This document shows positions 4,932-23,522 of a stretch of 64,000 nt of DNA, one piece after another (the stretch's first letter is position 1; each line of letters begins with the position of its first letter). Origin of the DNA: Pseudomonas laurentiana. GTDB taxonomy: Bacteria > Pseudomonadota > Gammaproteobacteria > Pseudomonadales > Pseudomonadaceae. The notes below the pieces were generated by a model. That model was given only the letters and a program-made list of their open reading frames with translations. It was not told the DNA's origin and searched no databases. Made by a program: the position numbers and the translations under genes. The stretch covers positions 62,001 to 126,000 of the forward strand of contig NZ_BMQU01000001.1 of assembly GCF_014648275.1 (NCBI RefSeq). The letters are read 5' to 3'.

Positions 4932-6205
4932 TGATGGGCCTCGCGTGGTGCGGGCAATGGCTTGGCCATCCACTCACGGCCTTTGAGCATGCAACGCCAG
5001 TACAGCGGCGGCAGGATACGCTCCTTCAACAGCCACGCCAGGCGGGTCGGCTTACGCCCATCAAGCAGCCAGCGAGGGAAGCTCGGGGCAACCTTGCCAC
5101 CATAGGTGAACTCCGCCAGCACGATCTTGCCGCGCTCCACGGTCAACGGGCAGGAACCATATCCGTCGTAATGCACGACATTCGCCAGGCGCCCCAGCGC
5201 GACCAGTACGTTATTGGCAACCACAGGGGCCTGCTTGCGTGCGGCGGCGGCGGTCTTGGCATTCGTGGTGTTTGTGGCATCGCCAAGGCCGTGGATATTG
5301 GCAAAACGACGGTGGCGCAAGGTTGCTGGATCGACATCGATCCAACCCGCGGCATCCGACAAGGGGCTGTTACGAATGAACGCCGGGGGCACCTGTGGCG
5401 GCACCACATGCAGCATGTCGAATGGCTGAACCAGGGTTTCGCTGCTGCCGTCAGGCAGTGTGCGCACAAAGGTTGCCTGTTTTGCCGGCCCATCCACCGC
5501 CACCAGACGATGGGCGTAGTTGAGGTCGACCGCATACTTGTCGATGTACTCCATCAGCGCCGGCACATAGTCCGCTACGCCAAACAACACCGCGCCCGCA
5601 TTGAAGAACTGTGCCTGGATGTTGCCCAGACGCCCACTGCGCAACCAGTGATCGCACGACAGGTACAACGCCTTCTGCGGCGCACCTGCACACTTGATCG
5701 GCATCGGCGGCTGGGTGAACAGGGCCTTGCCTTTCTGCAGCTGTTGCACCAACTGCCAGGTGTACGGCGCCAAGTCATAACGGTAGTTGGAGGTCACACC
5801 ATTGCGGCCCAAGGTTTCACTCAAGCCTTCGATCGCGTCCCAGTCGAGCTTGAGGCCCGGGCATACAACCAGCTGTGCATAACTGATCAGCCGACCGTCC
5901 TCCAACTGCACCGTCTGCGCCTGGGGGTCGAAGAACTGTGCGGCACCCTTGATCCAGGTCACGCCCTTGGGAATGGCCGAAGCCATACTGCGTACTGTGC
6001 TCTTGGGTTGGAATACGCCGGCACCCACCAGTGTCCAGCCAGGTTGATAGTAATGAACCTCGGCCGGGTCGATGATTGCCACATCCAGAGACGGATCGCG
6101 GGCCATCAGGCTGGAGGCCGTGGCAAGGCCTGCTGCACCGGCACCGATGATCAGGACGTTGTGGTGCGCACAGGAGGCTGGCGTTGATGAAGGTTGAGCA
6201 AGCAT
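4928..6205 (-). CDS. sqr: Sulfide:quinone oxidoreductase (type II, detoxifying)
   Basis: A 425-residue membrane-associated flavoprotein that oxidises H2S to sulfane sulfur (persulfide/polysulfide) and passes electrons to ubiquinone. The FAD motif VLIIGAGAAGLA is at about 18-29. The two redox cysteines expected of mitochondrial-type SQR are visible: one in IKCAGAPQK near residue 170 and one in GYGSCPLTV near 350. The second FAD segment IHGLGDATN is near 303. It sits 38 bp after the persulfide dioxygenase gene and overlaps the exporter gene by 4 bp, so the three form one transcript. Together they oxidise sulfide to sulfite and export the anion. Expression probably comes from the sigma-54 promoter upstream of the dioxygenase. 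Confidence 0.93.
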   Translation of the reverse strand: MLAQPSSTPASCAHHNVLIIGAGAAGLATASSLMARDPSLDVAIIDPAEVHYYQPGWTLVGAGVFQPKSTVRSMASAIPKGVTWIKGAAQFFDPQAQTVQLEDGRLISYAQLVVCPGLKLDWDAIEGLSETLGRNGVTSNYRYDLAPYTWQLVQQLQKGKALFTQPPMPIKCAGAPQKALYLSCDHWLRSGRLGNIQAQFFNAGAVLFGVADYVPALMEYIDKYAVDLNYAHRLVAVDGPAKQATFVRTLPDGSSETLVQPFDMLHVVPPQVPPAFIRNSPLSDAAGWIDVDPATLRHRRFANIHGLGDATNTTNAKTAAAARKQAPVVANNVLVALGRLANVVHYDGYGSCPLTVERGKIVLAEFTYGGKVAPSFPRWLLDGRKPTRLAWLLKERILPPLYWRCMLKGREWMAKPLPAPREAHQ

Positions 6206-6243
6206 GGCTGTGTTTCCTTAATAATAATTCTGTCGCGCCGGAA

Positions 6244-7128
6244 TCAGATGGCGTTGAGCGGGATCTTCAGATAGCGCACACCATTGTCTTCGGGCTCGGG
6301 CAGCTGACCGCTGCGCATGTTGACCTGCACCGAGGGCAGGATCAGAACCGGCATATCCAGGGTCGCGTCACGGGCCTCGCGCATTGCCACAAATGCATCT
6401 TCGTCGATGCCTTCACGCACATGGATGTTGCTGGCACGCTGTTCGGCAACCGTGGTCATGTAGCGCAACTCGCGACCGCCTGGCAGGTAGTCGTGGCACA
6501 TGAACAGGCGGGTATGGTCGGGCAGGGCAAGAATGCGGTTGATCGAGCGGTACAACGTGCGGGCGTCAGCACCAGGGAAATCACACCGCGCGGTGCCGTA
6601 GTCAGGCATGAACAAGGTATCGCCGACGAATGCCACCGTTTCACCGCCGGCTTCGACGATGTAAGTCATACAGGCCGGGGTATGACCCGGCGTATGCATG
6701 GCGCGCGCGCGCAAGCCGCCAATCAGGAATTCGCTACCGTCTTCAAAGAGCACATCGAACTGACTGCCGTCTCGGGCGAATCGGCTATCGGCATTGAACA
6801 GCGCACCGAAGACTTTCTGCACTTGGGTGATATGGCTGCCAATGGCGACCTGCCCACCGAGCTTCTCTTTCAGGTACGCAGCAGCCGACAGGTGATCAGC
6901 ATGCACATGGGTTTCCAGAATCCATTGCACCTTGGCGCCCAACTCGGTCACCCGCGCAATCAGCTTGTCCGCCGAGCCGGTATCGGTACGTCCAGACTTG
7001 GGATCGTAGTCCAGCACACTGTCGATCAGTGCACAGTGTCCGCTGCCGCGATCCATCACCAGATAACTGATGGTCCAGGTCGCGCTGTCGAACAGTGCTT
7101 CCACATACAGGTTGCCGCCAATGATCAT
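6244..7128 (-). CDS. MBL-fold persulfide dioxygenase (ETHE1/Blh-like)
   Basis: A 294-residue metallo-beta-lactamase-fold hydrolase of the persulfide dioxygenase group, which oxidises glutathione persulfide to sulfite using mononuclear iron. The metal motif is THVHADHLSAA (HxHxDH) at about 73-83, followed by the later metal ligands in HTPGHTPACMTY and the FVGDTLF aspartate loop. The C-terminal part is longer than in ETHE1, as in the Blh/type II enzymes. It is the first gene of the sulfide operon and is followed by SQR, the partner that generates its persulfide substrate. A sigma-54 type promoter lies about 65-80 bp before its ATG. A generic MBL hydrolase annotation would be possible, but the SQR linkage argues for persulfide dioxygenase. 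Confidence 0.88.
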   Translation of the reverse strand: MIIGGNLYVEALFDSATWTISYLVMDRGSGHCALIDSVLDYDPKSGRTDTGSADKLIARVTELGAKVQWILETHVHADHLSAAAYLKEKLGGQVAIGSHITQVQKVFGALFNADSRFARDGSQFDVLFEDGSEFLIGGLRARAMHTPGHTPACMTYIVEAGGETVAFVGDTLFMPDYGTARCDFPGADARTLYRSINRILALPDHTRLFMCHDYLPGGRELRYMTTVAEQRASNIHVREGIDEDAFVAMREARDATLDMPVLILPSVQVNMRSGQLPEPEDNGVRYLKIPLNAI

Positions 7129-7191
7129 GACCTTCTCCCGATAAATCCATTGATGCCAACGTAAGGCATAGCTGGCAGTCGCAAGGCTGTC

Positions 7192-7207
7192 ATCAAGATA
7201 TGTGCCA
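7192..7207 (-). promoter_or_regulatory. Sigma-54 (-24/-12) promoter of the sulfide operon
   Basis: On the minus strand the sequence reads TGGCAC, five bases (ATATC), then TTGAT. The -24 half is a perfect sigma-54 element; the -12 half matches TTG but has A instead of the usual C. A transcript would start near 7181, leaving about 53 nt before the dioxygenase ATG. The divergent gene encodes a sigma-54 activator, which supports the assignment. Confidence 0.7.
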
Positions 7208-7266
7208 TCGGTCGGGAAGCGTATAGCCCCCGTGTTTACAGGGTCTGGCTGTATCCCTGCTAACAG

Positions 7267-7317
7267 ACTGCCGTGCCGTTTGGCAGTGATGTGGCAGTGC
7301 CTGGCAGTTTTTGGCAG
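7267..7317. promoter_or_regulatory. Phased TGGCAG repeat array, probable activator binding site (UAS)
   Basis: TGGCAG occurs four times in the same orientation, starting at 7281, 7292, 7302 and 7312 (spacings 11, 10, 10), so all copies face the same side of the helix. An inverted half (ACTGCC, 7267-7272) precedes them. The array lies about 75-110 bp upstream of the sigma-54 promoter at 7192-7207 and directly before the activator gene, the position expected of an enhancer for an AAA+ activator. Confidence 0.55.
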
Positions 7318-7366
7318 TCTTCGTCACCTTCGGGTAAGCTCTTCGAGTGCTTGCCCAGGTGTCGCC

Positions 7367-8683
7367 ATGTCCCGCTTGATTACTGCTGTCCCGAACATCC
7401 CCGCCGTCCAGGCGCTGGTGTCATACCTCGAACATGACCCCCAGCCCACCATCGTGCTGGATACCCGCTACAACATCCTTGCTGCCAACAGCGCGTACCA
7501 ACGTCAGTTCGGCGTGGAAGGCCAATCAACCGTGGGCGCCAAGTGCCATCAGGTCTCCCACCATTACGCTGTGCCCTGCGATCAGGCTGGCGAGCATTGC
7601 CCGATGCGCAAGGCCAGAGAAAGCCGTGTACCCGAGCGGATGCTGCATATTCACCACACGCCACGTGGCCCGGAACATGTCGATGTGGAGCTAAGGCCGA
7701 TACTCGATGAGCAGGGTGAAGTCGTCGCGTTCGTCGAGCGCCTGACCAGCATCACCGTGGCCTCGGCTCAACCCCAGCAACATGGCCTGGTCGGCCGGGC
7801 ACCCGCGTTCAAGCAGGCATTGGCCAGCCTGCAACGCGCAGCGCCATCACAGATTCCAGTGCTGCTGCAGGGTGAGTCCGGCACGGGCAAAGAGCTGTTC
7901 GCCCGTGCGCTGCACCTGAGTGGCCCCCGCGCCAACGGTCCGCTGGTGGTCGTTGACTGTACCGGCCTGACCGAATCGCTGTTCGAAAGCGAGCTGTTCG
8001 GCTATGAAAAGGGCGCCTTTACCGGCGCCTTGCAGCGCAAGATCGGTCTGGCTGAAGCCGCACATGGCGGCACCCTGTTTCTCGATGAAATCGGTGAAGT
8101 GCCACTGGCGATGCAAGTGAAACTGTTGCGTCTGATCGAGTCAGGCAGCTTCCGCCCGGTGGGCAGCCTGCGTACTGTTCACTCGGACTTCCGCCTGATC
8201 TCGGCCACCCATAAACCCCTCAAGGAAATGGTTGCCAACGGTACCTTCCGTGAAGACCTCTACTACCGGATCAGCGCCTTTCCGATTCGTCTTCCCGCCC
8301 TGCGCGAGCGTGTCGAAGACCTGCCGCTATTGATCGACAGCCTGTTGCAACGCATGGCCGGGCCCCAAGCGCCACGGGTAGATCCGCAGGCCATGCGCTG
8401 GCTCAACCTGCACACGTACCCAGGGAACATCCGTGAGCTGAGAAACATCCTTGAGCGGGCACGATTGTTTGCCGATGACGGGGTCATTCGGGCAGAGCAT
8501 CTACCCGACGATGTGAAACCCGACAATGCCACGGCAGGGCAATCGCAACGACGCAAAAAGGAACACCTTGGCCAACTGGCACAGGCACTCCAGGCGTTTG
8601 AAGGTTCACGCAGTGAGCTGGCTCAACAACTGGGAATGAGTGAGCGAACACTGTACCGGCGCTTGCGCGAGCTGGGTCTGTAA
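7367..8683 (+). CDS. fisR: Sigma-54-dependent activator, FisR-like sulfane-sulfur sensor
   Basis: Enhancer-binding activator of 438 residues with the order PAS-like sensor (about 15-130), AAA+ domain (about 140-370) and Fis-type helix-turn-helix (about 395-438). The AAA+ part shows Walker A GESGTGKE, the sigma-54 contact loop GAFTGA and Walker [12 protein letters not shown]. The sensor has exactly three conspicuous cysteines, Cys60, Cys71 and Cys78. Their 11- and 7-residue spacing matches, from memory, the three sensing cysteines of FisR in Cupriavidus, which reacts with sulfane sulfur and turns on sqr and pdo. It is divergent from just such an operon. I start at the ATG at 7367 because the sensor domain begins there; the longer open frame to 7202 runs through the TGGCAG array. 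Confidence 0.85.
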
Positions 8684-8806
8684 ACACGGGCGAGAAAACC
8701 AATAACACCGTTCCTTGATTTTCAGTTGCCCAAACAACGGTTTCTTCACGGTCCATCGGGCAAGATTCTGGCTGAATCTGCTTAGCTCTTGATGGGGTCC
8801 AGCTTT

Positions 8807-9460
8807 ATGTCGTTGTCTTTCACGGGGTCAAACCGGCGCGCAAGAAACGTGCTTATTACCGTACTTGCGATCGTGCTCTTAATTATTGGCTCCTACTTTC
8901 TATTCAGAACACCTCGGCTGACCAATCTTGCCCAGAGCAGTGTGGTACAGCTCGCACCGTTAAAAACAGCGTGGGCCAATGGCGACGTCATTGTCGTGAT
9001 TCGCCACGCGGAACGCTGCGACCTGTCGAGTGCACCCTGTCTGAATGCCCCTGATGGCATCACCAAGCGCGGCAAAGACACCGCCGTGAAGCTGGGTGAG
9101 CATTATCAAAAGCTCGGCCTGGACCAGGCAGATATCTTTGTCAGCCCCCTGACCAGAACCCGACAAACCGCGAACTTTATGTTCAACCGCGACGTCGAGG
9201 CCCAGAAGTGGCTCGCTGGCTGCAAAGGCATCATGCTTAAGACATCACTTGAAACCAAGCGCCCCGGACACAACCTGATTCTGGTTACCCACAGCGATTG
9301 CATTCGGGAAATAGAAAAGCACTTGAATGTGCATGCCCCTGAAAAGCCACCCTATGCCTCGTCACTGTTCATCGTCTTGGGCCATGACGACAAAAAACCT
9401 CGAGCATTGGGTTTCTTTTATGCGCGCGACTTCAATAGCGATTGGATGAACCAGAAATAG
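8807..9460 (+). CDS. Membrane-anchored histidine phosphatase (Ais/PmrG-like)
   Basis: A 217-residue histidine phosphatase-superfamily protein. An N-terminal signal-anchor (about residues 13-34, VLITVLAIVLLIIGSYFLF) should place the enzyme in the periplasm. The catalytic RHG-type motif appears as VIRHAERC, with the second histidine in LVTHSDCIREIEKH. These features resemble the lipopolysaccharide core heptose-phosphate phosphatase Ais/PmrG, which removes phosphate from the LPS core. The ATG at 8807 is preceded by GATGGGG at good spacing; a start at 8792 is possible. It stands alone between the FisR-like gene and a bidirectional terminator. The substrate is inferred from family resemblance only. 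Confidence 0.75.
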   Translation: MSLSFTGSNRRARNVLITVLAIVLLIIGSYFLFRTPRLTNLAQSSVVQLAPLKTAWANGDVIVVIRHAERCDLSSAPCLNAPDGITKRGKDTAVKLGEHYQKLGLDQADIFVSPLTRTRQTANFMFNRDVEAQKWLAGCKGIMLKTSLETKRPGHNLILVTHSDCIREIEKHLNVHAPEKPPYASSLFIVLGHDDKKPRALGFFYARDFNSDWMNQK

Positions 9461-9841: not shown

Positions 9842-10198
9842 TTTTACAGTGTCCCAACGATGCAAACGGTCAACGTCTTCAGTCGGAATCGGTAAGGCTG
9901 AAGGCTCTGCGAAACGTGGCAGGGTCGTTTGCTTACACCCTTGAAGTTCTGCGTTTCGCGGCTTTGTCTGGAAGCTGGGTACAGTTTATTCCGCTGCGAA
10001 TTTAGATAAATGCCAATGTTGGCAAAGCAATCTTTAGCGAAATGGAACAATCGCTTCACGGCCACCGCCGTTGTATCTACAACCTGACCAGAAACGGTTT
10101 AAACATGCGGTGTTTTGCGGAGGCCGCATTAAGTCAGCCATGAAAGCGGCGGCCGCTTGCAGCTCGCCGCCGGGTTGCTTGTAACTGCCAACCTAGGG
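9842..10198. other. Non-coding gap upstream of the DUF2790 gene
   Basis: I see no convincing gene here; the short open frames have no family resemblance or good ribosome site. It holds a short palindrome, TGCCAA-TG-TTGGCA at 10011-10024, about 170 bp upstream of the DUF2790 start, which could be an operator. The rest is unremarkable. Confidence 0.4.
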
Positions 10199-10273
10199 TC
10201 AGCAGGCCACCAATGCTTGGTCGGCCCAGAGGGCCAGGAGAACATGCCAGGCACTCGATAATGCTGTTTGCAT
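10199..10273 (-). CDS. Possible 24-residue hydrophobic peptide
   Basis: A very short open frame beginning MQTALSSAWHVLLALWA and ending in VAC, preceded by a strong ribosome site (GGAG, eight bases before the ATG). The middle is hydrophobic enough to be a single membrane helix. It lies just after the terminator of the N-demethylase operon on the same strand, so it would need its own promoter or read-through. I do not recognise it. The strong ribosome site is the main reason to list it; chance is a real alternative. Confidence 0.35.
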   Translation of the reverse strand: MQTALSSAWHVLLALWADQALVAC

Positions 10274-10302
10274 GATCTTCACTCCAGATCGGAATTACGA
10301 CG

Positions 10303-10342
10303 GAAAGCGGCCAGCTTCAGCAACCTTGCTTGCCTGGCCGCT
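10303..10342 (-). terminator. Stem-loop terminating the N-demethylase operon
   Basis: Inverted arms AGCGGCCAG (10306-10314) and CTGGCCGCT (10334-10342) around a 19-base loop, followed on the minus strand by a short T run. It is placed 30 bp after the aldehyde dehydrogenase stop. Confidence 0.6.
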
Positions 10343-10371
10343 ATTGGCACCACCGGTTCAGTCAGTCCATA

Positions 10372-11796
10372 TCAATGCTTGAACATTACATGGCGTACGG
10401 CGGTGTAGTCCTCTAGCCCGTACATGGACATGTCCTTACCGTAGCCGGAGTGCTTGACCCCACCGTGAGGCATTTCGCTGGTCAGCATGAAATGCGTGTT
10501 CACCCAGGTGCAGCCGTATTGCAGGCGCGCAGACAAGCGATGGGCGCGACCGACATCCGACGTCCAGACCGATGAGGCCAGGCCGTAGTCCGAATCGTTG
10601 GCCCAGCCCAGAACTTGCTCTTCCTCATCAAAGGCAGTAACCGAAACCACTGGGCCGAATACCTCGCGACGAACGATTTCATCGTCCTGGCGGGCGCCAG
10701 CCAGCACGGTGGGTTGAAAGAAGAAGCCAGGGCCGTCAACGCGATGACCACCGGTGACCACCTGGATGTGCGGCAGGGCGCTGGCGCGCTGGACAAAGCC
10801 TTCGACACGCTCAAGGTGCTGCTCGGTGATCAGCGGGCCGAGTTCGGTCGTCGGGTCGTCCTGCAGGCCAGGCTGGATAGTGCTCACCGCCTCGCCGAGC
10901 TTGGCCACGAACTGCTCGTAGATACCTTTCTGCGCATAAATACGGCAGGCAGCGGTGCAGTCCTGACCAGCATTGTAGAAACCAAATGTACGGATACCCT
11001 CTACGGCGGCATCGATATCCGCATCATCAAAGATGATGACCGGCGCCTTGCCGCCCAGCTCCATGTGCATGCGTTTCACGCTGTCGGCAGTGCCACTGAT
11101 GATCCGCGAACCCGTGGCGACCGAGCCGGTCAGCGAGACCATGCGCACTTTCGGGTGGGTGACCAGCGGCTCGCCAACGCTCGGACCACGGCCAAACACC
11201 ATGTTCACTACGCCTGCGGGGAAAATGTCGGCGATGAACTCAGCCAGCTTCAGCGCGGTCAACGGCGTCTGTTCCGAAGGTTTCAGCACCACCGTATTGC
11301 CCGCCGCCAGGGCTGGGCCCAGCTTCCAGGCCGCCATCATCAGCGGGTAGTTCCACGGCGCGATAGAGGCGACCACGCCGACCGGGTCGCGGCGAATCAT
11401 CGAGGTGTGGCCAGGCAGGTACTCACCTGCCGCAGAACCGCTCATGCAGCGGCTTGCACCGGCGAAAAAGCGGAACACATCGGCGATGGCCGGCAGCTCG
11501 TCGTTCAAGGCGGCGGTGAAGGGCTTGCCGCAGTTCTGCGACTCCAGGCGGGCAAGCTCCTCGGCATGGGCGTCAATGGCATCGGCAAGCTTGAGCAGCA
11601 GGGTCGAACGGTCCTTCGGCGAGGTCTGAGACCACTGCGCAAAGGCGTTATCGGCGGCGCGCACGGCAGCATCGACCTGGGCCGCGCTGGCCTCGGGGAT
11701 TTCCACCAGGGCGGTACCCAAGGACGGGTTGAGCACTGCGATGCTAGGGCCTTCGCCAGCAATGAGTTGGCCGTTGATCAGGAGTTTTGTTTGCAT
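10372..11796 (-). CDS. Aldehyde dehydrogenase, gamma-aminobutyraldehyde dehydrogenase-like
   Basis: A 474-residue NAD(P)-dependent aldehyde dehydrogenase of the PatD/YdcW (aminobutyraldehyde, betaine aldehyde) subgroup, acting in the cytoplasm. The Rossmann segment [12 protein letters not shown] is near 225, the catalytic Glu lies in MELGGKAPV near 247, and the nucleophilic Cys in [11 protein letters not shown] near 282. It is the last gene of the operon carrying the N-demethylase, reductase and permease genes, 88 bp after the permease. The operon context suggests it oxidises an amino-aldehyde left after N-demethylation or chain cleavage. Annotating it as putrescine-pathway PatD is possible, but no aminotransferase or glutamyl-putrescine gene is nearby. 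Confidence 0.85.
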
Positions 11797-11820
11797 GATT
11801 CAGTCCTTCGGCTGCCTGAG

Positions 11821-11846
11821 CCCCTTCTCCCTGAAAGGAGAAGGGG
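11821..11846. repeat. Intercistronic perfect inverted repeat
   Basis: CCCCTTCTCC, six-base loop, GGAGAAGGGG between the permease and aldehyde dehydrogenase genes. It has no T run, so it is more likely an mRNA-stabilising or attenuating hairpin than a full terminator. Confidence 0.6.
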
Positions 11847-11884
11847 GGCAGCGTGAGTAAGGGAGGTTGGATAAAGGCGTTGGA

Positions 11885-13411
11885 TTAACGTACTGGCACG
11901 CCAGCGACGTTAGCGGCCTTGGGCAGAGGCTTGGAGAACTTCCAGGCGTCACCGGCCGGGGCCGTACCTTTGTCATACGGCTTGGCCAGCAGCATGTAGA
12001 GGAAGCCAGCGCCCATCACCACCACCGTAGTCAGAATCATTGAGTAGTTGATGTACCAGGCCGCATCAGGACTGCGCGGCCAGACCATGTTGATGATGGC
12101 GCCAACACCGTAAATCAGCGCGGCGATGTTCACCAACAGCCCCCAGCCACCGAGGCTGAACTGGCCGCTTGGGCGCCAGCCTTTGCCACGGGCGATCAGC
12201 GCAGCGATGACAATCAACTGGAACGCCACATAGATGCCAATGGCAGCGAAGCCGACGATGGTAGCCACGGCATCGGCCATGAACAGACCCAGGCAGACGA
12301 TGCACGCCGGCATCACGCCGCTCACGACCAGCGCGAAAGACGGTACATGGTTGGCAGACAAGCGCTTCAGCAGGTTGCTGCCAACGATCATCTCGTCACG
12401 GGCGTAAGAGAACAACAAGCGGCTCGCCGCGGCTTGCAGGCTCAGAACGCAAGAGATGAAGGAGACCATCACCACCGCCATCACCAATTTCGAACCTACC
12501 GGGCCGAAGGCATTGGCAAGGATGGTGGAAACCGGATCGGTGTCTTCGCCAGCAATCACTTTCTGCATATCCGGGACAGCCAGAATCAGCGCCAGGCAGG
12601 CGAACATGGCAGCGGCGCCACCAATGTAGATAGTCATGCGCATGGCTTTGGGGATGCGCTTGCCGGGGTTGGGGGTTTCTTCCGCCACGTCACCGCAGGC
12701 CTCAAAGCCGTAGTACTGGAACAGGCCCGCCAGGGAAGCGGCAAGGAAGGCTGGCAGGTAGGAGCCGTTGACGTTGAGATCAAAGGTATTGAACAGCACG
12801 CTAATCGGTTGGTGACGCTCGAAGATCAGCAGGTAACCCCCCACCAGGATTGCACCCACCAGTTCGCAGAGGAAGCCGAACATGGCCACCCGAGCAAGCA
12901 GCTTGGTGCCCACCAGGTTGAGTCCTGTAGACAACAGAATCAGGCTGAGGGCGATGTAAATATTGGCGTTGGAGCTGGAATCGAAACCGAGCATGGCGGC
13001 CATGTAAGGGCCAGCACCGACGGCGACACCGGCGATGGTGGCGCACAGCGCCCAGGCATAGACCCAACCCACCATCCAGGCCCAGCGCTTGCCGACCAGG
13101 CGTCGCGCCCAAGGGTAGACACCACCGGAGATGGGGAACTGGGACACCACCTCACCGAACACCAGACACACCAGCATCTGGCCGAGGCCAATCAGCAGGT
13201 AGGACCAGAACATTGGCGGACCACCTGCCGCGAGGCAGAGGCCGAACAACGTATAGACGCCGACCACCGGCGACAGATAGGTGAAACCCAGGGAGAAGTT
13301 CTCCCACAGGCTCATGCTACGGTTGAAGTTGGAGCTGTAGCCAAGCGCACGCAGTTGCTCGGCATCCTGATCGATAGAAGCGGTTGCACTTGCCGCAGAA
13401 GACCCACTCAT
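11885..13411 (-). CDS. APC-family amino acid/GABA-type permease
   Basis: A 508-residue inner-membrane permease of the amino acid-polyamine-organocation superfamily, with about twelve hydrophobic segments. The conserved start of segment 1 reads FSLGFTYLSPVVGVYTLFG, and a further family motif is GGVYPWARRLVG. It resembles the eukaryotic-type GABA/choline permease branch found in pseudomonads. The ATG at 13411 (MSGSSAAS) is chosen because GAGGAAAA precedes it; a longer frame to 13459 lacks this. It lies 105 bp after the N-demethylase gene and before the aldehyde dehydrogenase. In this operon it should import the nitrogen compound that the demethylase attacks. The exact substrate is unknown. Confidence 0.85.
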   Translation of the reverse strand: MSGSSAASATASIDQDAEQLRALGYSSNFNRSMSLWENFSLGFTYLSPVVGVYTLFGLCLAAGGPPMFWSYLLIGLGQMLVCLVFGEVVSQFPISGGVYPWARRLVGKRWAWMVGWVYAWALCATIAGVAVGAGPYMAAMLGFDSSSNANIYIALSLILLSTGLNLVGTKLLARVAMFGFLCELVGAILVGGYLLIFERHQPISVLFNTFDLNVNGSYLPAFLAASLAGLFQYYGFEACGDVAEETPNPGKRIPKAMRMTIYIGGAAAMFACLALILAVPDMQKVIAGEDTDPVSTILANAFGPVGSKLVMAVVMVSFISCVLSLQAAASRLLFSYARDEMIVGSNLLKRLSANHVPSFALVVSGVMPACIVCLGLFMADAVATIVGFAAIGIYVAFQLIVIAALIARGKGWRPSGQFSLGGWGLLVNIAALIYGVGAIINMVWPRSPDAAWYINYSMILTTVVVMGAGFLYMLLAKPYDKGTAPAGDAWKFSKPLPKAANVAGVPVR

Positions 13412-13516
13412 ATTGTTTTCCTCATTTGAATGGCAGTCGTTTGCATGGCGGCGGGTCACTGCCCGCCGGTGCTCATCGAAGAGCCTTTATTGTTATGGGT
13501 GAAGCGTGATGCGAAC

Positions 13517-14557
13517 TTATCCAGCCTTGACCACCTCCTCGTCTTGGCCGTCGTCAAACTGCGAGAGCCATTCAACAGCGGCGTCGCGGTAGCGGGTAAA
13601 GCCCTTGTAGTCCACCAGCTCCTGATTCAGGGACTTGAGCACACGGTGCATGCGCTTGGCCCAGGCCGGGTTGGTGGCGATGTCTTCCAGGTTCAGCAAG
13701 TAAGTGCGGATCGGGAATACGATCGCGTTACTGCGCGGCAGGCGGTGCAAGGGTTGCAGCTCAATACGCAGGTAAACCAGCTTGCCAGCGTTTTCAGCAG
13801 TGACCGTGGTGCGGTCAGGTGCCCAGTCCGGCAGGCTTTCGGCCGAGACGTCCAGCCGCGGATTGACCGTCAGCGACCAGTTCAGGCGGCGTACCGGGTG
13901 ACCGCAGCGCAGACGCAGAAGGAACTTCAGCGCACGGTCGAGCATGCCGGTTTCCTTCAGCAACGGCACTGGGCCGTGAAATTCGTGCCAGGCCATGCCG
14001 AGGTTGAAACGCAACGAGTAGTCGGCGCGCTGGGTAGCGATACCAGCACCCCAGTAAAGGGTGCCGTCGCGCTCTTCCTGCAGAACCCAATCGCCCTGAG
14101 CCTGGCGGGTGATGTACTCCATCGGCTCATAGGGCAAGGTGGACGGGTCACCGAAGGTGAAGGTGTCATCGATGTTCAGCAGCGTGTTGGTCCAGTGCCA
14201 GCGAGTGCCATCCTTCTCCAGAGTGAAGTATTCGGGGTAGTCGCTGGCGTAGGACTCCATGATCAGCTCGAGCAGGTCCCACTGCGCTTCCATCATGTGC
14301 GGCGCCGACACGTAGTGCATGCCCGGATCTTTCTCCAGGGTGATCGCACGGTCACGGCACTCGCTGATGTAGTGCTCGTCGATGTCGAAGATGGCCTTCA
14401 GCGCACCGTCACCCACCGATACATGGGGCTCCAGGTTCATCGAGTACATGTACTCGTCGTCCGGGAAAGGGAAGGGTGCACGGGCGATGCACTCCGGGCT
14501 GTTCGCGTAGGTGTAGTCGTCGCGGTACGTTTCGTCGGGTCGGAACTGGATGGTCAT
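13517..14557 (-). CDS. Heme-dependent oxidative N-demethylase family protein (DUF3445)
   Basis: A 346-residue member of the DUF3445/HODM family, the catalytic subunit type of dimethylamine monooxygenase in Pseudomonas. Characterised members bind heme in a PAS-like fold and split an N-methyl group off a secondary amine with O2 and electrons from a reductase. The protein begins MTIQFRPDETYRDDY; the central WGAGIATQRADYSLRFN and the RTYLLNLEDI region look family-typical. The two genes just upstream encode its usual partners, a 2Fe-2S/flavin reductase and a DmmA-like protein. No gmaS (gamma-glutamylmethylamide synthetase) is present, and the downstream genes encode a permease and an aldehyde dehydrogenase, so the substrate may not be dimethylamine. 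Confidence 0.85.
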   Translation of the reverse strand: MTIQFRPDETYRDDYTYANSPECIARAPFPFPDDEYMYSMNLEPHVSVGDGALKAIFDIDEHYISECRDRAITLEKDPGMHYVSAPHMMEAQWDLLELIMESYASDYPEYFTLEKDGTRWHWTNTLLNIDDTFTFGDPSTLPYEPMEYITRQAQGDWVLQEERDGTLYWGAGIATQRADYSLRFNLGMAWHEFHGPVPLLKETGMLDRALKFLLRLRCGHPVRRLNWSLTVNPRLDVSAESLPDWAPDRTTVTAENAGKLVYLRIELQPLHRLPRSNAIVFPIRTYLLNLEDIATNPAWAKRMHRVLKSLNQELVDYKGFTRYRDAAVEWLSQFDDGQDEEVVKAG

Positions 14558-14570
14558 GGGGGTTCTCCGT

Positions 14571-15539
14571 TCAGCAGTCGATGACCAGCCGCGAGCATTT
14601 GGCACGCGACACGCAGGGCATGATTTTTGTATTGGCGGCCTTGTCTTCGTCGGACAGCCAGTCGTCGGTGTGGACGATTTCGCCGTCGAGTTCGAGCACG
14701 CGGGTTTCGCACTCGCCGCAGGCGCCGCCACGGCACAGGTAGGGAATCGAGTGACCGGCAGCTTCAGCGGCTTCCAGCAGGCTCTGGTCAGGCGATACTT
14801 CGATCGTCGCGCCACTGCGCGCCAAGGTAACGCTGAACGCCTCGCCAACACTGCCTTGCTCTAGAAAGCGCTCGTAGTGAATGTGGCTATCGGTCCAGCC
14901 TTGAGCATGGGCACTGTCGATGGCGTCCTGAATCATGGATTCAGGGCCGCACACATACAAGTGGCTGCCCAGCGGGCGCGCGGCGACTACAACCGAGATA
15001 TCCAGGCGCTGGTCGAGGTCGTTGCGATACAGACGTACGGCATCGCCATATTCGCGCACCAGCTCTTCGCCCAAGCGCGCGTGCTCGGCACCGCGTACGG
15101 CCAAATGCACCTCGAAAGGCGTGCCTCGCAGACGCAGTTCGGCCAGTTGCGAGCACACCGGAGTAATGCCGACACCACCCGCGATGAACAGGTGCAGACG
15201 AGCATGCTTGCTCAACGGGAACAGGTTCACCGGACGCAGGATTTCCAGCACATCACCTTCGTTCACGGCTTCGTGCATCCGCAGCGAACCGCCACGGCCC
15301 TCTTCAACACGGCGCACGGCGATCTGGTAGGCACTGGAGTCGTATGGTGAACTCATCAGCGAGTAGGCATTGCGGTAGGTGCCATTCTCGTGAGGGATCA
15401 ACACCACCACGTTGCTGCCACCCGAGAAGGGCGGCAGGTGCGCGCCGTCGGTGGCCACCAGGGTAAATCGCTTGATTTCTGGTGTGACAGCTTCGATGCG
15501 GGCAACCCGCACATTCAGGGTTCCGTTGCTCAAGCTCAT
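14571..15539 (-). CDS. Ferredoxin/flavin reductase of the N-demethylase system (DmmB/VanB-like)
   Basis: A 322-residue phthalate-dioxygenase-reductase type protein: flavin-binding barrel, NAD(P)H-binding domain and C-terminal plant-type 2Fe-2S ferredoxin. The flavin motif RNAYSLMSSP is near 57-66, the nucleotide motif FIAGGVGITPVCSQ near 114-127, and the iron-sulfur cysteines are in LCRGGACGECETRVL plus a later MPCVSRAKC. It passes electrons from NAD(P)H to the heme demethylase encoded 13 bp downstream. Its ATG overlaps the TGA of the DmmA-like gene (ATGA), a sign of translational coupling. VanB-like reductases of aromatic demethylases look similar; the neighbours decide for the amine system. 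Confidence 0.88.
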   Translation of the reverse strand: MSLSNGTLNVRVARIEAVTPEIKRFTLVATDGAHLPPFSGGSNVVVLIPHENGTYRNAYSLMSSPYDSSAYQIAVRRVEEGRGGSLRMHEAVNEGDVLEILRPVNLFPLSKHARLHLFIAGGVGITPVCSQLAELRLRGTPFEVHLAVRGAEHARLGEELVREYGDAVRLYRNDLDQRLDISVVVAARPLGSHLYVCGPESMIQDAIDSAHAQGWTDSHIHYERFLEQGSVGEAFSVTLARSGATIEVSPDQSLLEAAEAAGHSIPYLCRGGACGECETRVLELDGEIVHTDDWLSDEDKAANTKIMPCVSRAKCSRLVIDC

Positions 15540-16138
15540 GTGTCGAGCTCCTCTGCTTCTGGCAATTCACCGGGGACTTCGGCGTCGGCCTTCACGGCCT
15601 GGAAGGCGGCGAGACGGCGGGAGTAATGGTCACGCACGACCAGCATTGCGTTGCAGCCAGGGCACTGGAACACGCGCTGGGTGACGTTCTCGGTGTAGCT
15701 GTCGCAATGCACGCACCAGATACGACGGACGAAAGAACCGGCGTGTTCGCGGAGCACTTCATCACTGTTCATGTCGTAGTGGGTGGCCACCTGCATGGCG
15801 GTACCGATAAAGCTCTCCGAGCCCGAAAGGTAGAGCCGGGTGCCCATGCGGGCATTACCCAGGATGCGCTCCAGATCCGCCACCAACTCTTGATTGCTGG
15901 GGTACACACGCAGCTCGGCGACCTGCCGCTGCTGTAGTTCGGCGAGGAAATCCAGGCCGGAGAAAGATTCCTGTGAATAGAGCAGAGTGGTCTGCATGCC
16001 TTGCTCGGGCATCTCATCCAGCAGGCGTAGCATGGCGCGGCCACCACTACCCTGGCCTGCGACGAGGTGACGGATTCCACCCGGCAGGGGGCGCAGTTGG
16101 TCGTAGACCGGCCGACTCTTGATACCTGTGATCAGCAT
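15536..16138 (-). CDS. DmmA-like subunit of an amine monooxygenase
   Basis: A 200-residue protein of the DmmA family. The N-terminal part looks like an NAD(P)-binding ferredoxin-reductase fragment (MLITGIKSRPVYDQL..., HLVAGQGSGGRAMLRLL), and the C-terminal part has a zinc- or iron-ribbon, CVHC...CPGC, near residues 148-172. In dimethylamine monooxygenase the equivalent protein is an accessory or electron-transfer subunit. The ATG at 16138 is chosen because GGAGG precedes it; an upstream ATG at 16186 has no such site. It is the first gene of the operon, about 90 bp after a strong sigma-54 promoter. Confidence 0.82.
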   Translation of the reverse strand: MLITGIKSRPVYDQLRPLPGGIRHLVAGQGSGGRAMLRLLDEMPEQGMQTTLLYSQESFSGLDFLAELQQRQVAELRVYPSNQELVADLERILGNARMGTRLYLSGSESFIGTAMQVATHYDMNSDEVLREHAGSFVRRIWCVHCDSYTENVTQRVFQCPGCNAMLVVRDHYSRRLAAFQAVKADAEVPGELPEAEELDT

Positions 16139-16228
16139 TGTTGTTTTACCTCCAGGACCGCCGATGCCCGATAGGGCATTCAGCATCGATGCAATGACCC
16201 ATCAGGTGGATGGGTTGCAGGTTGCTAT

Positions 16229-16244
16229 TGCACATGCTGTGCCA
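16229..16244 (-). promoter_or_regulatory. Sigma-54 promoter of the N-demethylase operon
   Basis: On the minus strand TGGCAC, five bases (AGCAT), GTGCA: a perfect -24 element and a -12 element with the invariant GC, at correct spacing. A transcript would start near 16218, 80 nt before the DmmA-like ATG. The gene just upstream encodes a sigma-54 activator. Confidence 0.85.
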
Positions 16245-16310
16245 ATTTTTAACTCATTGAAAAATATGGATTTTTATTATCTGCTGGCGAAAATGTTGGC
16301 AAAAATAGCG

Positions 16311-16388
16311 TGTGCCGTAGGCATTCTTGCAGCGGTATGGGAGGCGGCGGAGAGGGGAAATTGCAGCAGACGGCACATCCCTGTGCCG
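16311..16388. promoter_or_regulatory. TGTGCCG repeats, probable activator binding sites
   Basis: TGTGCCG occurs at 16311-16317 and 16382-16388, and its complement CGGCACA at 16371-16377. The last two form an 18-bp palindrome (7-bp arms, TCCC between). They lie about 95-170 bp upstream of the predicted transcript start, where an enhancer-binding protein should bind. The palindrome also sits right after the activator gene stop, so it might act as that gene's end hairpin instead. Confidence 0.5.
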
Positions 16389-16394
16389 GAAAAA

Positions 16395-17849
16395 TCAATC
16401 GCGTTGCAGCTTGCGAATCAAGGTACCGATATCAATGCCCAGTTGCTGGGCCGCCTTGCGTTTGCTGCCTTGGCTCTGGACTGCCTGGAGAATGAGCTGG
16501 CGCTCATAGCGCTGAACCTGCGCCTTAAGGCTTTCGCCCAGTTCGTCGTCGGCTGGCAGCTCTGCATCAACCTCCTGGCGTGGAGTCGTTGGTCTGATGG
16601 AAATCGGTGCAATGAGCCCCAGCAGTTCCGGTGGCAGATGCTGTTCACTGGCCTCATCATCAGCCAGCACAGCCAGGCGTTCAAAAATGTTCACCAGCTC
16701 GCGGATATTGCCCGGATAGTCATAGCTCAATAGACGTTGACGGCAACCGCCGGACAACCGCAGCGTGGGCTGGCGGTCACGGTTGATGCGCATCAGCAGG
16801 ATGTCCATGAGTACTGGCAAGTCTTCCAGGTGCTGGCGGAGCGGAGGAATCTCCACCGGCAACACAGCAAGGCGGTAGTACAGGTCGGCACGGAACTCGC
16901 CGGACTCTACTAGCCGCCGTAAGTCCTTGTTGGTGGCGGCGATCACCTGGACTTGCACCGTCTTGCTCAAGGGCGAGCCGACCGACTGAATGCTGCCGTC
17001 TTCAAGGAACTTGAGCAGCTTGGCCTGGACATGCAGAGGGATTTCGCCAATCTCATCAAGGAACAGGGTGCCGCCCGAGGCGCTTTCGATGTAACCGCGC
17101 TTGCCACTCTGCAAGGCACCTGTGAAGGCACCGCGCTCGTAGCCGAACATCTCTGACTCAAACAGGCTTTCCGGAATGCTGCCGCAATTGACGTGAATGA
17201 AGGGCCGATCCCCCCAACCAGCCGCGCGGTGGATATGCCGGGCAATAGCGGTCTTGCCAACGCCGGGTTCCCCCAGCAAGAGCAAACGAGCGCGGCGGCG
17301 AAATGCACGTACACCCGTGTCGGCGATGCTGGAGAGCAAAGGGGAGAGGTGCAGGGCGTTATCCTGCGGATCGCCAAGGCCGCTATTTTCCGCAGGGGCG
17401 AAAGCCTGCTGCGACGTGCGACGAGGGCTCTCACGACCTTCAAAATCTCGCTGCACCAATAACGTATAAGGCTTTTCGTAAGCGCCGGTGGGAACCGCCT
17501 GGGTGCTGGTGAGGAACATGCGGCCATCGCGGGAGCGGGTCAAGGCGCTGTTCCCACCCCGCCCAACAGCTTGCTGGAAATCATCGAAGCTCAGGGCCGA
17601 ACGCTGGAAGAACTCGGCATTGGGCAAGCCGATCGCGTCTTCTCGGGACACTCGATTCACCCGCTCAGCGGCAAGGTTGAGAAAGCGCACCCGAGACTCG
17701 CCATCGCACAGGATGATTGCCTCACTGAAGCTGTCCAGCAGGGCATGCAACGCAGGGGTTTCCAGCAGCGCGGAAAGTACGTCGCTGCTGACATTGACCG
17801 AAGATCGCATGCCCATCTTCAGGGGCGGCAAGAGACTTTTCTCGATCAT
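16395..17849 (-). CDS. Sigma-54-dependent activator (PAS-AAA+-HTH) of the N-demethylase operon
   Basis: A 484-residue enhancer-binding protein. An N-terminal PAS-like domain (about 35-130) is followed by the AAA+ domain (about 165-395) with Walker A GEPGVGKT, the sigma-54 loop GAFTGA and [11 protein letters not shown]. The C terminus (SKRKAAQQLGIDIGTLIRKLQ) is a helix-turn-helix of the TyrR/Fis kind. It is encoded just before the sigma-54 promoter of the catabolic operon on the same strand, so it is the likely activator. Its ATG overlaps the end of the PAS-only gene by 4 bp, suggesting the two proteins are made together and perhaps act as a pair. Confidence 0.88.
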   Translation of the reverse strand: MIEKSLLPPLKMGMRSSVNVSSDVLSALLETPALHALLDSFSEAIILCDGESRVRFLNLAAERVNRVSREDAIGLPNAEFFQRSALSFDDFQQAVGRGGNSALTRSRDGRMFLTSTQAVPTGAYEKPYTLLVQRDFEGRESPRRTSQQAFAPAENSGLGDPQDNALHLSPLLSSIADTGVRAFRRRARLLLLGEPGVGKTAIARHIHRAAGWGDRPFIHVNCGSIPESLFESEMFGYERGAFTGALQSGKRGYIESASGGTLFLDEIGEIPLHVQAKLLKFLEDGSIQSVGSPLSKTVQVQVIAATNKDLRRLVESGEFRADLYYRLAVLPVEIPPLRQHLEDLPVLMDILLMRINRDRQPTLRLSGGCRQRLLSYDYPGNIRELVNIFERLAVLADDEASEQHLPPELLGLIAPISIRPTTPRQEVDAELPADDELGESLKAQVQRYERQLILQAVQSQGSKRKAAQQLGIDIGTLIRKLQRD

Positions 17850-18979
17850 GGATGTAGCTCGCCGTTGTGCTGGATGGTACGTTCCGCTGCGCGCAGTACT
17901 GCCACCTTCCAGGCCACGCCTTCTTGCATGAGGATGCGCGAGCAGTGGACGTTAAACAGTTGCAGGTGCCCACTGAGATTGGTCAAGTGCAGGCTGTGCC
18001 AGGTGCGCTCAGGCAGTGACTGATCGAGCAGGGCGTGGGCGATGCTCGCACCTTGGGTGATACCGAAGGCCTGCTCAAAGGCGGCGTTACGCCACCGCGG
18101 TTGCAGCTCTTCGTCGATCACCAGCACAGCGTCCGGTACCGCGTCGAAGACTCGGCGCAAGGCATCGATGCGCTGCTCAGCATCGTGCTGCATCCGCAGT
18201 TCCTGGCTAACGTCGCGGATGCTGCCCCACATGCGTAGCAGGCGACCGTCATGGATAGCGGCACGGACATCGTTCTCCACATAGGCAGGGGAACCATCGT
18301 GGCGGCGGTCCACCGACAGCGCGCCGTCGACACAGAAATCGGTCTCCACCAGACGCCTTACGAACTCTTCGTTAGCCGGGCTGCGCGGCCAGTAAAGTCG
18401 GACCGGCTGCTGGTTAAAGTCGACGTCCGCCGGCATCTCGTAGACATCCGCCATGGCACGGTTACACATGCGCCAGTAAGAGCGGTTTTCGAACACCTGA
18501 CGGACGACTTCGTCGGGTGTCTGGGTAATGTCCACTGCTTCAGCGAACTCAATGCACCAGTAGGCCACCTTGGCGCTATAGAGCATCTGGGTCATGACTT
18601 CGTTGGCGTTCTGCAGCTCACTCAAGCGGTGACTCAACGAACCCAGCGGTATAAACACGAGGTGAATTCTGGGGGAGTGAACATCACGCCATTCAACGAG
18701 GCCGCTAGCCAGCACGGGAAACAGGCCTGTGCTGTGCCGTATCAATGTAAGCGCCAGGCTGCCCAGCTTTTCATCAGCCGGCGGGCAGGAAAACAGCTTA
18801 CGCAGAAGGTGTGTGGACTCCGCAGTGAAAATGCTTTCAATGCTGCAGTTCTGCATCTCTACCGGGGAGTAGCCGAGTTGGTCACTCAACGACGAAGAGA
18901 CGTTGGTCAGGCGTCCGCTTTCGCAGACCGTGCAGCTCAGTAGGGCACCCCGATCAGCGAGGGTTTGAATAAGCGACAT
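17846..18979 (-). CDS. PAS-domain sensor protein without output domain
   Basis: A 377-residue, apparently soluble protein. I see PAS-like modules at about 15-120 (TCVCESG not required; GRLTNVSSSLSDQLGYSPVEM is the clear start), about 125-255 with a PAC-like stretch (HDGSPAYVENDVRAAI), and about 265-375 (RVFDAVPDAVLVIDEELQP). No kinase, GGDEF, EAL or DNA-binding region is visible, so it should work through a partner. The overlapping downstream gene encodes a sigma-54 activator, the obvious candidate. A split sensor/activator pair for an amine or for oxygen/redox state is inferred. The ATG at 18979 is the only sensible start; 383 bp of gap precede it. Confidence 0.75.
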   Translation of the reverse strand: MSLIQTLADRGALLSCTVCESGRLTNVSSSLSDQLGYSPVEMQNCSIESIFTAESTHLLRKLFSCPPADEKLGSLALTLIRHSTGLFPVLASGLVEWRDVHSPRIHLVFIPLGSLSHRLSELQNANEVMTQMLYSAKVAYWCIEFAEAVDITQTPDEVVRQVFENRSYWRMCNRAMADVYEMPADVDFNQQPVRLYWPRSPANEEFVRRLVETDFCVDGALSVDRRHDGSPAYVENDVRAAIHDGRLLRMWGSIRDVSQELRMQHDAEQRIDALRRVFDAVPDAVLVIDEELQPRWRNAAFEQAFGITQGASIAHALLDQSLPERTWHSLHLTNLSGHLQLFNVHCSRILMQEGVAWKVAVLRAAERTIQHNGELHP

Positions 18980-19172
18980 GTATGCGTCCGGGCTGTGGAA
19001 ATGGGCTCGGGGCTAGATGCGCATAATGCATGCCAACCTCAAGCAGCAGAAAGACCGAGGCTTTCAGCAAGAAAACTCACCCAGCCGCTGCATTTTCGCA
19101 GCAGCCGACCTCAAAAATGCACACCATCCTTGGCAGAAGTGCCGAGGGAATTTCATTTCCGAACGCACACAA
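18980..19172. other. Upstream part of a divergent intergenic region
   Basis: Part of a 383-bp gap between the PAS gene (leftward) and the GNAT gene (rightward). No gene is supported here. It must contain the promoter of the PAS/activator pair, but I see no clear -35/-10 pair. Confidence 0.4.
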
Positions 19173-19201
19173 AAAAGGCCAATTCAAAGAATTGGCCTTT
19201 T
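19173..19201. terminator. Orphan intrinsic terminator between divergent genes
   Basis: AAAAGGCCAATTC, short loop, GAATTGGCCTTTT: a strong stem with A/T runs on both sides, strongest as a minus-strand terminator (six T). The flanking genes both point away from it, so neither needs it at its 3' end. It may end a small RNA or a leader transcript. Confidence 0.8.
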
Positions 19202-19362
19202 GGTCCCTATTCGAGAGATTAGCAGATCATCATTTGTGACACGGATCAGCTGCTTTGTGCTCACTGGCAGCCGGCAGAAATTGAGGAGGGTAGTTTCATC
19301 GCCACAAGCGTGTGTAGCCATGAGAATATTTGTTTTTCTAAGAACGCCACACAGGAGAGTGT

Positions 19363-19791
19363 ATGACGGATAACACTTACAGCTTCAGCTTAGGTGCTGA
19401 CGCCGAGGCCATGGCGGTGGTTCGCCAAGGTCTGGAACACTTCAATGTGGGGCAGATTGGCCCCTATACCTATACCGATTTCCAGCTCTATGCCCGCGAT
19501 AGCAGCGGCCAGGTAATGGGTGGTCTGTTCGGCCACAGTGGGATGGGCTGGCTCTACATTGACTATTTTTGGTTAAACGACACCCTGCGCAGCCACGGCC
19601 TGGGCAGCAACTTGTTGAAGCGGGCAGAGGATGAGGCACGGCGCCGGGGCTGTAAGGGTGTGTTTCTTTATACCTACAGCTTCCAAGCCCCCGACTTCTA
19701 TCAGAAGCAGGGGTACCAAGTGATGGGCGTGTTGGAAGACTGCCCACCTGGACACCAGCGTTACTACCTGAAAAAGCCACTGAAGGACTGA
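19363..19791 (+). CDS. GNAT-family N-acetyltransferase
   Basis: A 142-residue GCN5-related acetyltransferase, a single domain of normal length. The acetyl-CoA region is seen as DTLRSHGLGSNLLKRAEDEARRRGC near residues 72-96, followed by YTYSFQAPDFYQKQGYQVMG, typical of small-molecule or protein N-acetyltransferases. A GGAGAG ribosome site precedes the ATG. It stands alone between the divergent PAS gene and the gyrB terminator. The acceptor is unknown. Confidence 0.85.
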   Translation: MTDNTYSFSLGADAEAMAVVRQGLEHFNVGQIGPYTYTDFQLYARDSSGQVMGGLFGHSGMGWLYIDYFWLNDTLRSHGLGSNLLKRAEDEARRRGCKGVFLYTYSFQAPDFYQKQGYQVMGVLEDCPPGHQRYYLKKPLKD

Positions 19792-19976: not shown

Positions 19977-23502
<3,526 letters not shown>

Positions 23503-23522
23503 CTAGACTATGCGAGACAAGA

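Follow-up and report, generated by a model that had tools for sequence, protein, structure and literature searches.

Organization of the operon

We analysed a cluster of seven genes in a 64,000-nucleotide stretch of the Pseudomonas laurentiana genome (contig NZ_BMQU01000001.1, positions 62,001 to 126,000; the window), carried by an assembly of 5.2 Mb. The genes run on the minus strand from 18979 to 10372 and encode a PAS protein, a sigma-54 activator, a DmmA-like protein, a 2Fe-2S reductase, an HODM-type heme oxygenase, an APC permease and an aldehyde dehydrogenase (ALDH). A preliminary description of this DNA had read the last five, in this order and on one strand, as an amine N-demethylation operon ending in an aminobutyraldehyde-type enzyme, and profile searches confirmed the genes and their order:

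17846..18979, minus strand: PAS-domain protein (Pfam PAS, PAS_4 and PAS_8), probably the sensor that works with the activator; lies 5' of the sigma-54 site
16395..17849, minus strand: sigma-54-dependent activator with an N-terminal PAS_4 and a C-terminal helix-turn-helix domain (Sigma54_activat 195.6 bits; HTH_50)
15536..16138, minus strand: DmmA-like subunit (NF041259 112.9 bits, cut-off 60; PF22290, PF22289)
14571..15539, minus strand: reductase subunit with a 2Fe-2S ferredoxin domain (PF00111, PF00175)
13517..14560, minus strand: alpha subunit of an HODM-type heme oxygenase, assigned to clade 2 by the tree below (PF11927 232.9 bits, cut-off 25)
11885..13459, minus strand: APC permease (PF13520); related permeases occur in both HODM and ydc loci
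10372..11796, minus strand: aminobutyraldehyde dehydrogenase (ABALDH; NF010000; 73.6% identical to 1wnb)

The PAS and activator genes overlap by 4 bases. The DmmA-like start was set at 16138 by an MLITG motif conserved among relatives (the longest open reading frame starts at 16186), in agreement with the end previously given to the demethylase block; the real start of the permease is probably near 13411. Profiles place the oxygenase in the HODM type, with an alpha subunit above the family cut-off and adjoining DmmA-like and 2Fe-2S reductase genes. A single distinct PDB sequence, 5LTE, matched the oxygenase (435.5 bits, 54.6% identity). The dehydrogenase scored 832.2 against NF010000 (cut-off 615) and 881.7 against the stricter equivalog TIGR03374, below its cut-off of 909.3. 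Its best PDB matches were 1wnb (793.5 bits; labelled putative betaine aldehyde dehydrogenase), which we take to be E. coli YdcW, and 6c43 (778.7 bits; labelled gamma-aminobutyraldehyde dehydrogenase). The closest named relative of the window DmmA is that of Pseudomonas defluvii (98%).

The genome carries a separate dimethylamine cluster

A second HODM lies on contig C3 of the same assembly, amid tmm, tdm and a dmmA-reductase-HODM-dmmD series. Tmm and Tdm exceed their equivalog cut-offs (836.5 against 675 and 1146.6 against 1100), and purU, amtB and glnK were recognised by eye nearby. DmmD was named there by its position and by the description in PMC5520151; its GcvT-type profile matches were below the cut-offs and no NCBIfam DmmD equivalog matched. 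The preliminary description had found no gmaS, which holds for the window operon and not for the genome, where gmaS is present on another contig (G000:C21:52607-53911, 661.7-662.8 bits, cut-off 469.6). Because this separate tmm/tdm/dmmABC-dmmD cluster is present, we rejected the window operon as the dimethylamine system of this genome. The operon is not the dimethylamine pathway, as had been supposed from the outset, and the co-occurrence data below, in which its clade is independent of gmaS, agree.

The oxygenase belongs to a distinct clade

We built an HODM tree (FastTree local supports, single alignment, midpoint root) from 25 canonical Pseudomonas sequences, including 5LTE, and 54 sequences that we call clade 2. 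The latter comprise the window HODM, 37 from further loci of the genus and 16 from loci of named genomes (Shimwellia, Lacisediminimonas, three Pseudomonas and 11 Actinobacteria), these 16 being drawn from the 80 of 108 relatives kept in a named-genome scan. All 54 clade-2 sequences fell in one group (support 0.976), which holds the window HODM apart from 5LTE, and the 25 canonical ones formed the other (support 0.999). The window protein is 66.8-95.4% identical to the other 53 members of its clade and 51.8-56.3% identical to the canonical enzymes. Twenty-eight positions separate the two groups at >=90% on both sides. Among them, W180Y, W193F, D170G and D185N (5LTE numbering) occur in 54/54 clade-2 sequences and F206L in 53/54, and the original W180, W193, F206, D170 and D185 are kept in all 31 canonical-type sequences (the 25 canonical plus six from outside). 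The smaller residues at W180, W193 and F206 are as expected for a larger substrate, if these positions line the pocket.

DmmA matches in other genera were considered as an extension of clade 2. The class-level scan matched 10 of 369 genomes, the window's own included, and the best six besides our own were fetched (32-42% identical), leaving out G564, G433 and G663. The extension was rejected, as five of the six have a DmmD-like gene in the retrieved stretch (about 4 kb from DmmA in L122); the sixth, L126, an 8-kb contig, has a Tdm-like gene. All six loci look canonical.

DmmD and gmaS do not accompany clade 2

The distribution of the clade was followed in 399 genomes of the genus, in which DmmA sequences 26-41% identical to that of the window (43-69 bits) were counted as canonical and those 69-100% identical as clade 2; weaker matches, below 26 bits (G307; several reductase-like), were excluded. 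Canonical DmmA was found in 51 genomes, clade-2 DmmA in 38, both in 8 and neither in 318. The gmaS gene (E <=1e-120) is present in 50 of the 51 canonical genomes (G413 is the exception), in 6 of the 30 genomes with clade 2 only and in 42 of the 318 with neither, so that clade-2-only genomes do not differ from the background (Fisher p 0.28, relatedness ignored). The possibility, raised in the preliminary description, that gmaS might travel with the operon in other genomes is thus not borne out. Put differently, 30 of the 38 clade-2 genomes have no canonical DmmA, and 24 of these 30 also have no gmaS.

DmmD lies directly 3' of HODM in 24/24 canonical loci examined (24 of the 51 genomes). In clade 2, a DmmD query found no match within the retrieved stretches of the 38 loci from the genus or the 80 from named genomes, two overlapping sets in which L068 says little, its contig stopping 63 bases past HODM. 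The absence of DmmD is suggestive evidence against formaldehyde production, and 24/24 against 0/38 among the genus loci runs counter to the N-demethylation first proposed for this operon. In the closest known system, the dimethylamine monooxygenase DmmDABC/HODM (Ruegeria pomeroyi, PMC5520151; HODM structure 5LTE), the three redox subunits are those of the window operon, in the same order; the window clade differs in lacking DmmD and a linkage to gmaS, in its fixed residue changes, and in often having ABALDH instead.

Architectures of clade-2 loci

Two arrangements divide the genus loci. In type A (19 genomes), to which the window operon belongs, the PAS gene, activator, DmmA, reductase, HODM and APC permease are followed or not by an ALDH, and the PAS and activator genes are found in 19/19 loci. 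In type B (19 genomes), GntR (GntR-FCD) and Cache genes diverge from ALDH, DmmA, reductase, HODM and an MFS gene. ABALDH, where present, follows the permease in type A and precedes DmmA in type B. The five-gene order of the window does recur in other genomes, as one arrangement among several.

Of the 35 genus loci that can be read on the relevant side, 31 have ABALDH: 12/16 of type A (nine whole copies, two cut by a contig end in L059 and L074, and one in pieces in L073) and 19/19 of type B; L065, L068 and L071 were too short to judge. Among the named-genome loci, a set that overlaps the genus set and from which 16 incomplete loci were left out, it occurs in 8/26 full type A, 25/25 type B and 4/4 other proteobacterial loci.

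A few loci have other neighbours. In Pseudarthrobacter (L195 and L196, about 11885-13432), an aldehyde dehydrogenase stands directly 3' of HODM, and the nearest models of the L195 protein are succinic-semialdehyde dehydrogenases, below cut-off. In Lacisediminimonas profundi (L160, 5877-11714), the operon lies behind a gamma-glutamyltransferase (366.7 against 357.85) and a peptide-type ABC transporter recognised by eye, neighbours that perhaps belong to a gamma-glutamylated amine route. The neighbours of L082 resemble a gamma-glutamylputrescine route, a weak lead in that the synthetase- and PuuC-like proteins are below the NCBIfam cut-offs.

ABALDH was recruited repeatedly

In an ALDH tree from which copies shorter than 400 aa were excluded, the 19 type B enzymes formed a clade of their own (support 0.998), apart from the type A copies. 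The nine type A ABALDHs (the row opA_L082 being a PuuC-like gene) were scattered among free copies; that of the window joined free copies from other genomes, apart from the remaining eight. By this tree, ABALDH has entered clade-2 operons more than once, and the weight that the preliminary description had put on the amino-aldehyde dehydrogenase appears well placed. At the DNA level, the operonic copy matches the copy in that genome's own ydc locus at 97.9-99.2% identity in four of six type A genomes tested (L066/L216, L067/L215, L072/L210 and L060/L214), and in the remaining two the operonic and free copies are 91.8 and 87.8% identical; between genomes, operonic copies are 84.5-94.1% identical. 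In four type B genomes, the identity between the operonic and the free copy is about 80%. The type A values would fit recent duplication or gene conversion maintaining the same activity.

Of 20 regions fetched around free ABALDH copies, 18 hold ydcSTUV-ABALDH, and in 10 of these the next gene is an APC permease with 74-78% identity to that of the window; L222 has neither, and L213 is apparently the broken-off end of a clade-2 operon. On the permease tree, type A permeases adjoin the ydc permeases, the type A group itself having weak support (0.393), and the actinobacterial permeases are more distant. The window operon resembles the ydcSTUV-ydcW locus in its ABALDH, 73.6% identical to 1wnb, and its kind shares an APC permease and nearly identical ALDH copies with the ydc locus of Pseudomonas. 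As to differences, HODM is absent from the ydc regions fetched, and their ABC transporter is missing from 116/118 clade-2 locus records; two clade-2 operons, L178 and L194, lie directly behind ydcSTUV (YdcS of L178, 734.7 against a cut-off of 725). In L062 (G337:C2:14001-34000), the clade-2 operon has a second APC permease 3' of its ABALDH; this permease groups with those of ydc loci, as though the end of such a locus had been spliced into the operon.

The promoter region

The intergenic region between the activator and DmmA genes holds three elements:

16229..16244, minus strand: sigma-54-type promoter TGGCACAGCATGTGCA, 5' of DmmA, assigned by pattern and conservation only
16295..16334, minus strand: recurring element around CGCTGCAAnAATGCCTAC and TTTTGCC, a candidate upstream activating sequence, found by eye
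16371..16388, no strand assigned: perfect palindrome with 7-bp arms that might serve the activator; the exact sequence is shared only by close relatives

One sigma-54-type site was found in the 64 kb where 0.68 were expected, which is within chance. A looser pattern is present in the same intergenic region of 54/56 type A loci, a set in which some contigs appear more than once, compared with 1% of letter-shuffled versions. An activator gene and a conserved -24/-12 type site thus characterize the operon, by pattern and conservation, as sigma-54-controlled. The single sigma-54 promoter of the preliminary description stands as a conserved site, with a reach now more narrowly drawn: as the site is 3' of the PAS and activator genes, only the genes from DmmA to ALDH can be downstream. 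These five would form a single transcript, judging from strand and spacing. A scan of 9900-19500 gave no sigma-70-like promoter, and its terminator-like sites were not above chance in number. The element around CGCTGCAAnAATGCCTAC and TTTTGCC was read by eye in eight intergenic regions, imperfectly in some. The palindrome was set aside as an activator site, its exact copies being confined to close relatives; a looser form matched 6/56 type A intergenic regions.

The proposed reaction and its alternatives

We then asked which reaction would make sense of this gene set. Enzymes of this family oxidise the carbon adjoining a secondary nitrogen, as is established for dimethylamine. Because clade 2 is without DmmD, is not associated with gmaS and has repeatedly recruited ABALDH, 'N-demethylation' is probably the wrong label for the window operon. 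We tentatively propose that it encodes a paralogous secondary-amine monooxygenase that makes 4-aminobutyraldehyde, most simply from pyrrolidine, rather than formaldehyde and methylamine. We infer the reaction, substrate, inducer and permease cargo from the gene content, as follows. The permease would import pyrrolidine, and the PAS protein with the sigma-54 activator would induce the operon. The HODM complex would hydroxylate the carbon beside the nitrogen of the secondary amine, giving 2-hydroxypyrrolidine, which would open to 4-aminobutyraldehyde/1-pyrroline, the amine's own carbon skeleton thus ending up as the aldehyde. ABALDH would oxidise this aldehyde to gamma-aminobutyric acid, which would then enter its general catabolism. 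If a ring carbon of a four-carbon ring is oxidised, the product is 4-aminobutyraldehyde, the expected substrate of ABALDH, which is what points to pyrrolidine; as neither formaldehyde nor methylamine would be formed, DmmD and gmaS would be unneeded. An undescribed catabolic system, as suggested in the preliminary description, is plausible and now better bounded, under a label other than N-demethylation.

Several observations weigh against this proposal. Pyrrolidine was picked on grounds of chemical parsimony and not of direct evidence. ABALDH is missing from 4/35 genus loci (L063, L069, L070 and L082, whose genomes hold it elsewhere), from 18 of the 26 named-genome type A loci with a readable downstream side, and from all nine full actinobacterial clade-2 loci. 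It is also widespread in the genus anyway: a match (E <=1e-160) occurs in 38/38 clade-2 genomes and in 243/361 others, a comparison inflated by the operonic copies and made at a threshold that admits a relative about 61% identical (G059, G113, G152 and G242 reach only about 1e-200). The co-occurrence counts are raw and ignore relatedness. Moreover, the absence of DmmD leaves formaldehyde possible, because dmmD in Ruegeria is needed for growth on trimethylamine and trimethylamine N-oxide and dispensable on dimethylamine or monomethylamine (PMC5520151). Finally, the ydc-type ALDH and APC permease could be a mark of polyamine, not pyrrolidine, metabolism, and ydcSTUV itself lies close to no more than 2/80 named-genome and 0/38 genus loci.

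Two alternatives start from polyamines. The preliminary description had favoured an N-methylated amino compound, and N-demethylation of an N-methylated four-carbon amine such as N-methylputrescine would release the methyl group as formaldehyde and leave ABALDH to act later on the putrescine-derived aldehyde. This would keep to the known reaction of the family, and ABALDH, the APC permease and the ydc-type relatives do indicate four-carbon amines; we nevertheless find it unlikely, given that DmmD is absent in 38/38 loci, that gmaS is not enriched and that more steps are required. Nor was a putrescine aminotransferase recognised by eye in the neighbourhoods, in which no profile search was made for one. 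The passage from pyrrolidine to 4-aminobutyraldehyde explains the gene set in fewer steps than an N-methylated polyamine would and is the simplest account. A linear polyamine containing a secondary nitrogen, such as spermidine or homospermidine, would on oxidative cleavage also yield 4-aminobutyraldehyde directly, together with a primary amine, and ydcSTUV, presumably a polyamine-type transporter, adjoins two clade-2 operons. We give this reading little credit: a pocket derived from that for dimethylamine would need to accommodate a long, multiply charged chain, pseudomonads possess other polyamine routes, and ydcSTUV is near just 2/80 named-genome and 0/38 genus clade-2 loci.

The other alternatives concern small amines. 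That the operon is a second monooxygenase of ordinary function for dimethylamine or a small dialkylamine, beside which ALDH and permease are incidental, agrees with the 51.8-56.3% identity to canonical enzymes and with the gmaS and dmmD genes elsewhere in this genome. It is hardly probable in view of the 30/38 clade-2 genomes without canonical DmmA, 24 of them without gmaS, and of a clade of its own with fixed differences and repeated ALDH recruitment. The logic used for pyrrolidine applies equally to other secondary amines that are cyclic or short (piperidine, azepane, diethylamine and so on), with the ALDH oxidising the matching aldehyde, and ABALDH-type enzymes accept several amino-aldehydes. 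We judge this improbable as well, the window ALDH being nearest to structures of the aminobutyraldehyde subfamily.

Returning to pyrrolidine, Jakoby and Fredericks (1959; cited in PMC5550421) reportedly worked on pyrrolidine and gamma-aminobutyraldehyde dehydrogenase. The organism is said to have been a Pseudomonas. To our knowledge, the oxygenase gene of the Pseudomonas pyrrolidine route, studied since then, is unassigned. A literature search, judged by listings and with subscription work mostly out of reach, gave no recognised account of this gene cluster or of a Pseudomonas pyrrolidine oxygenase. In mycobacteria, P450 systems, PipA/MorA, are described for piperidine, pyrrolidine and morpholine (PMC9477822), and a FadR-like GntR regulator for a system of this type (PMC2018728). 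The likeness would lie in a heme oxygenase that opens a cyclic secondary amine, for the window a proposed role, and the GntR-FCD gene of type B loci is a loose parallel to the regulator. The mycobacterial enzyme is a P450, whereas that of the window belongs to PF11927, and the window has a PAS/sigma-54 pair and no GntR. It is possible, and we put this a little more cautiously than the proposal for the window operon, that a widespread heme oxygenase clade within the HODM family, with no relation to P450 enzymes, converts pyrrolidine, or a cyclic secondary amine like it, to 4-aminobutyraldehyde by ring opening in Pseudomonas and Actinobacteria. If so, 38 of 399 genomes of the genus carry genes that profiles label dimethylamine monooxygenase and that have another function, surveys counting DmmA/HODM homologues overestimate dimethylamine users, the first step of pyrrolidine use by pseudomonads gains a testable gene, and a heme family has shifted from N-demethylation to ring opening.

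Neighbouring genes

Just upstream of the operon (19977-24626), genes resembling gyrB, recF and dnaN were read by eye, which probably places the operon near the chromosomal origin. On the other side, at 8798-9457, a protein exceeds the NCBIfam cut-off for PmrG, a lipopolysaccharide core heptose(II)-phosphate phosphatase (199.1 against 170). Further on (4928-8683), two genes diverge from a sigma-54 activator gene. One is sulfide:quinone-reductase-like, the other codes for an MBL-fold protein similar to the dioxygenase portion of Blh, and neither reaches its NCBIfam cut-off. The unit, whose regulator would presumably be named FisR, resembles one for sulfide oxidation.

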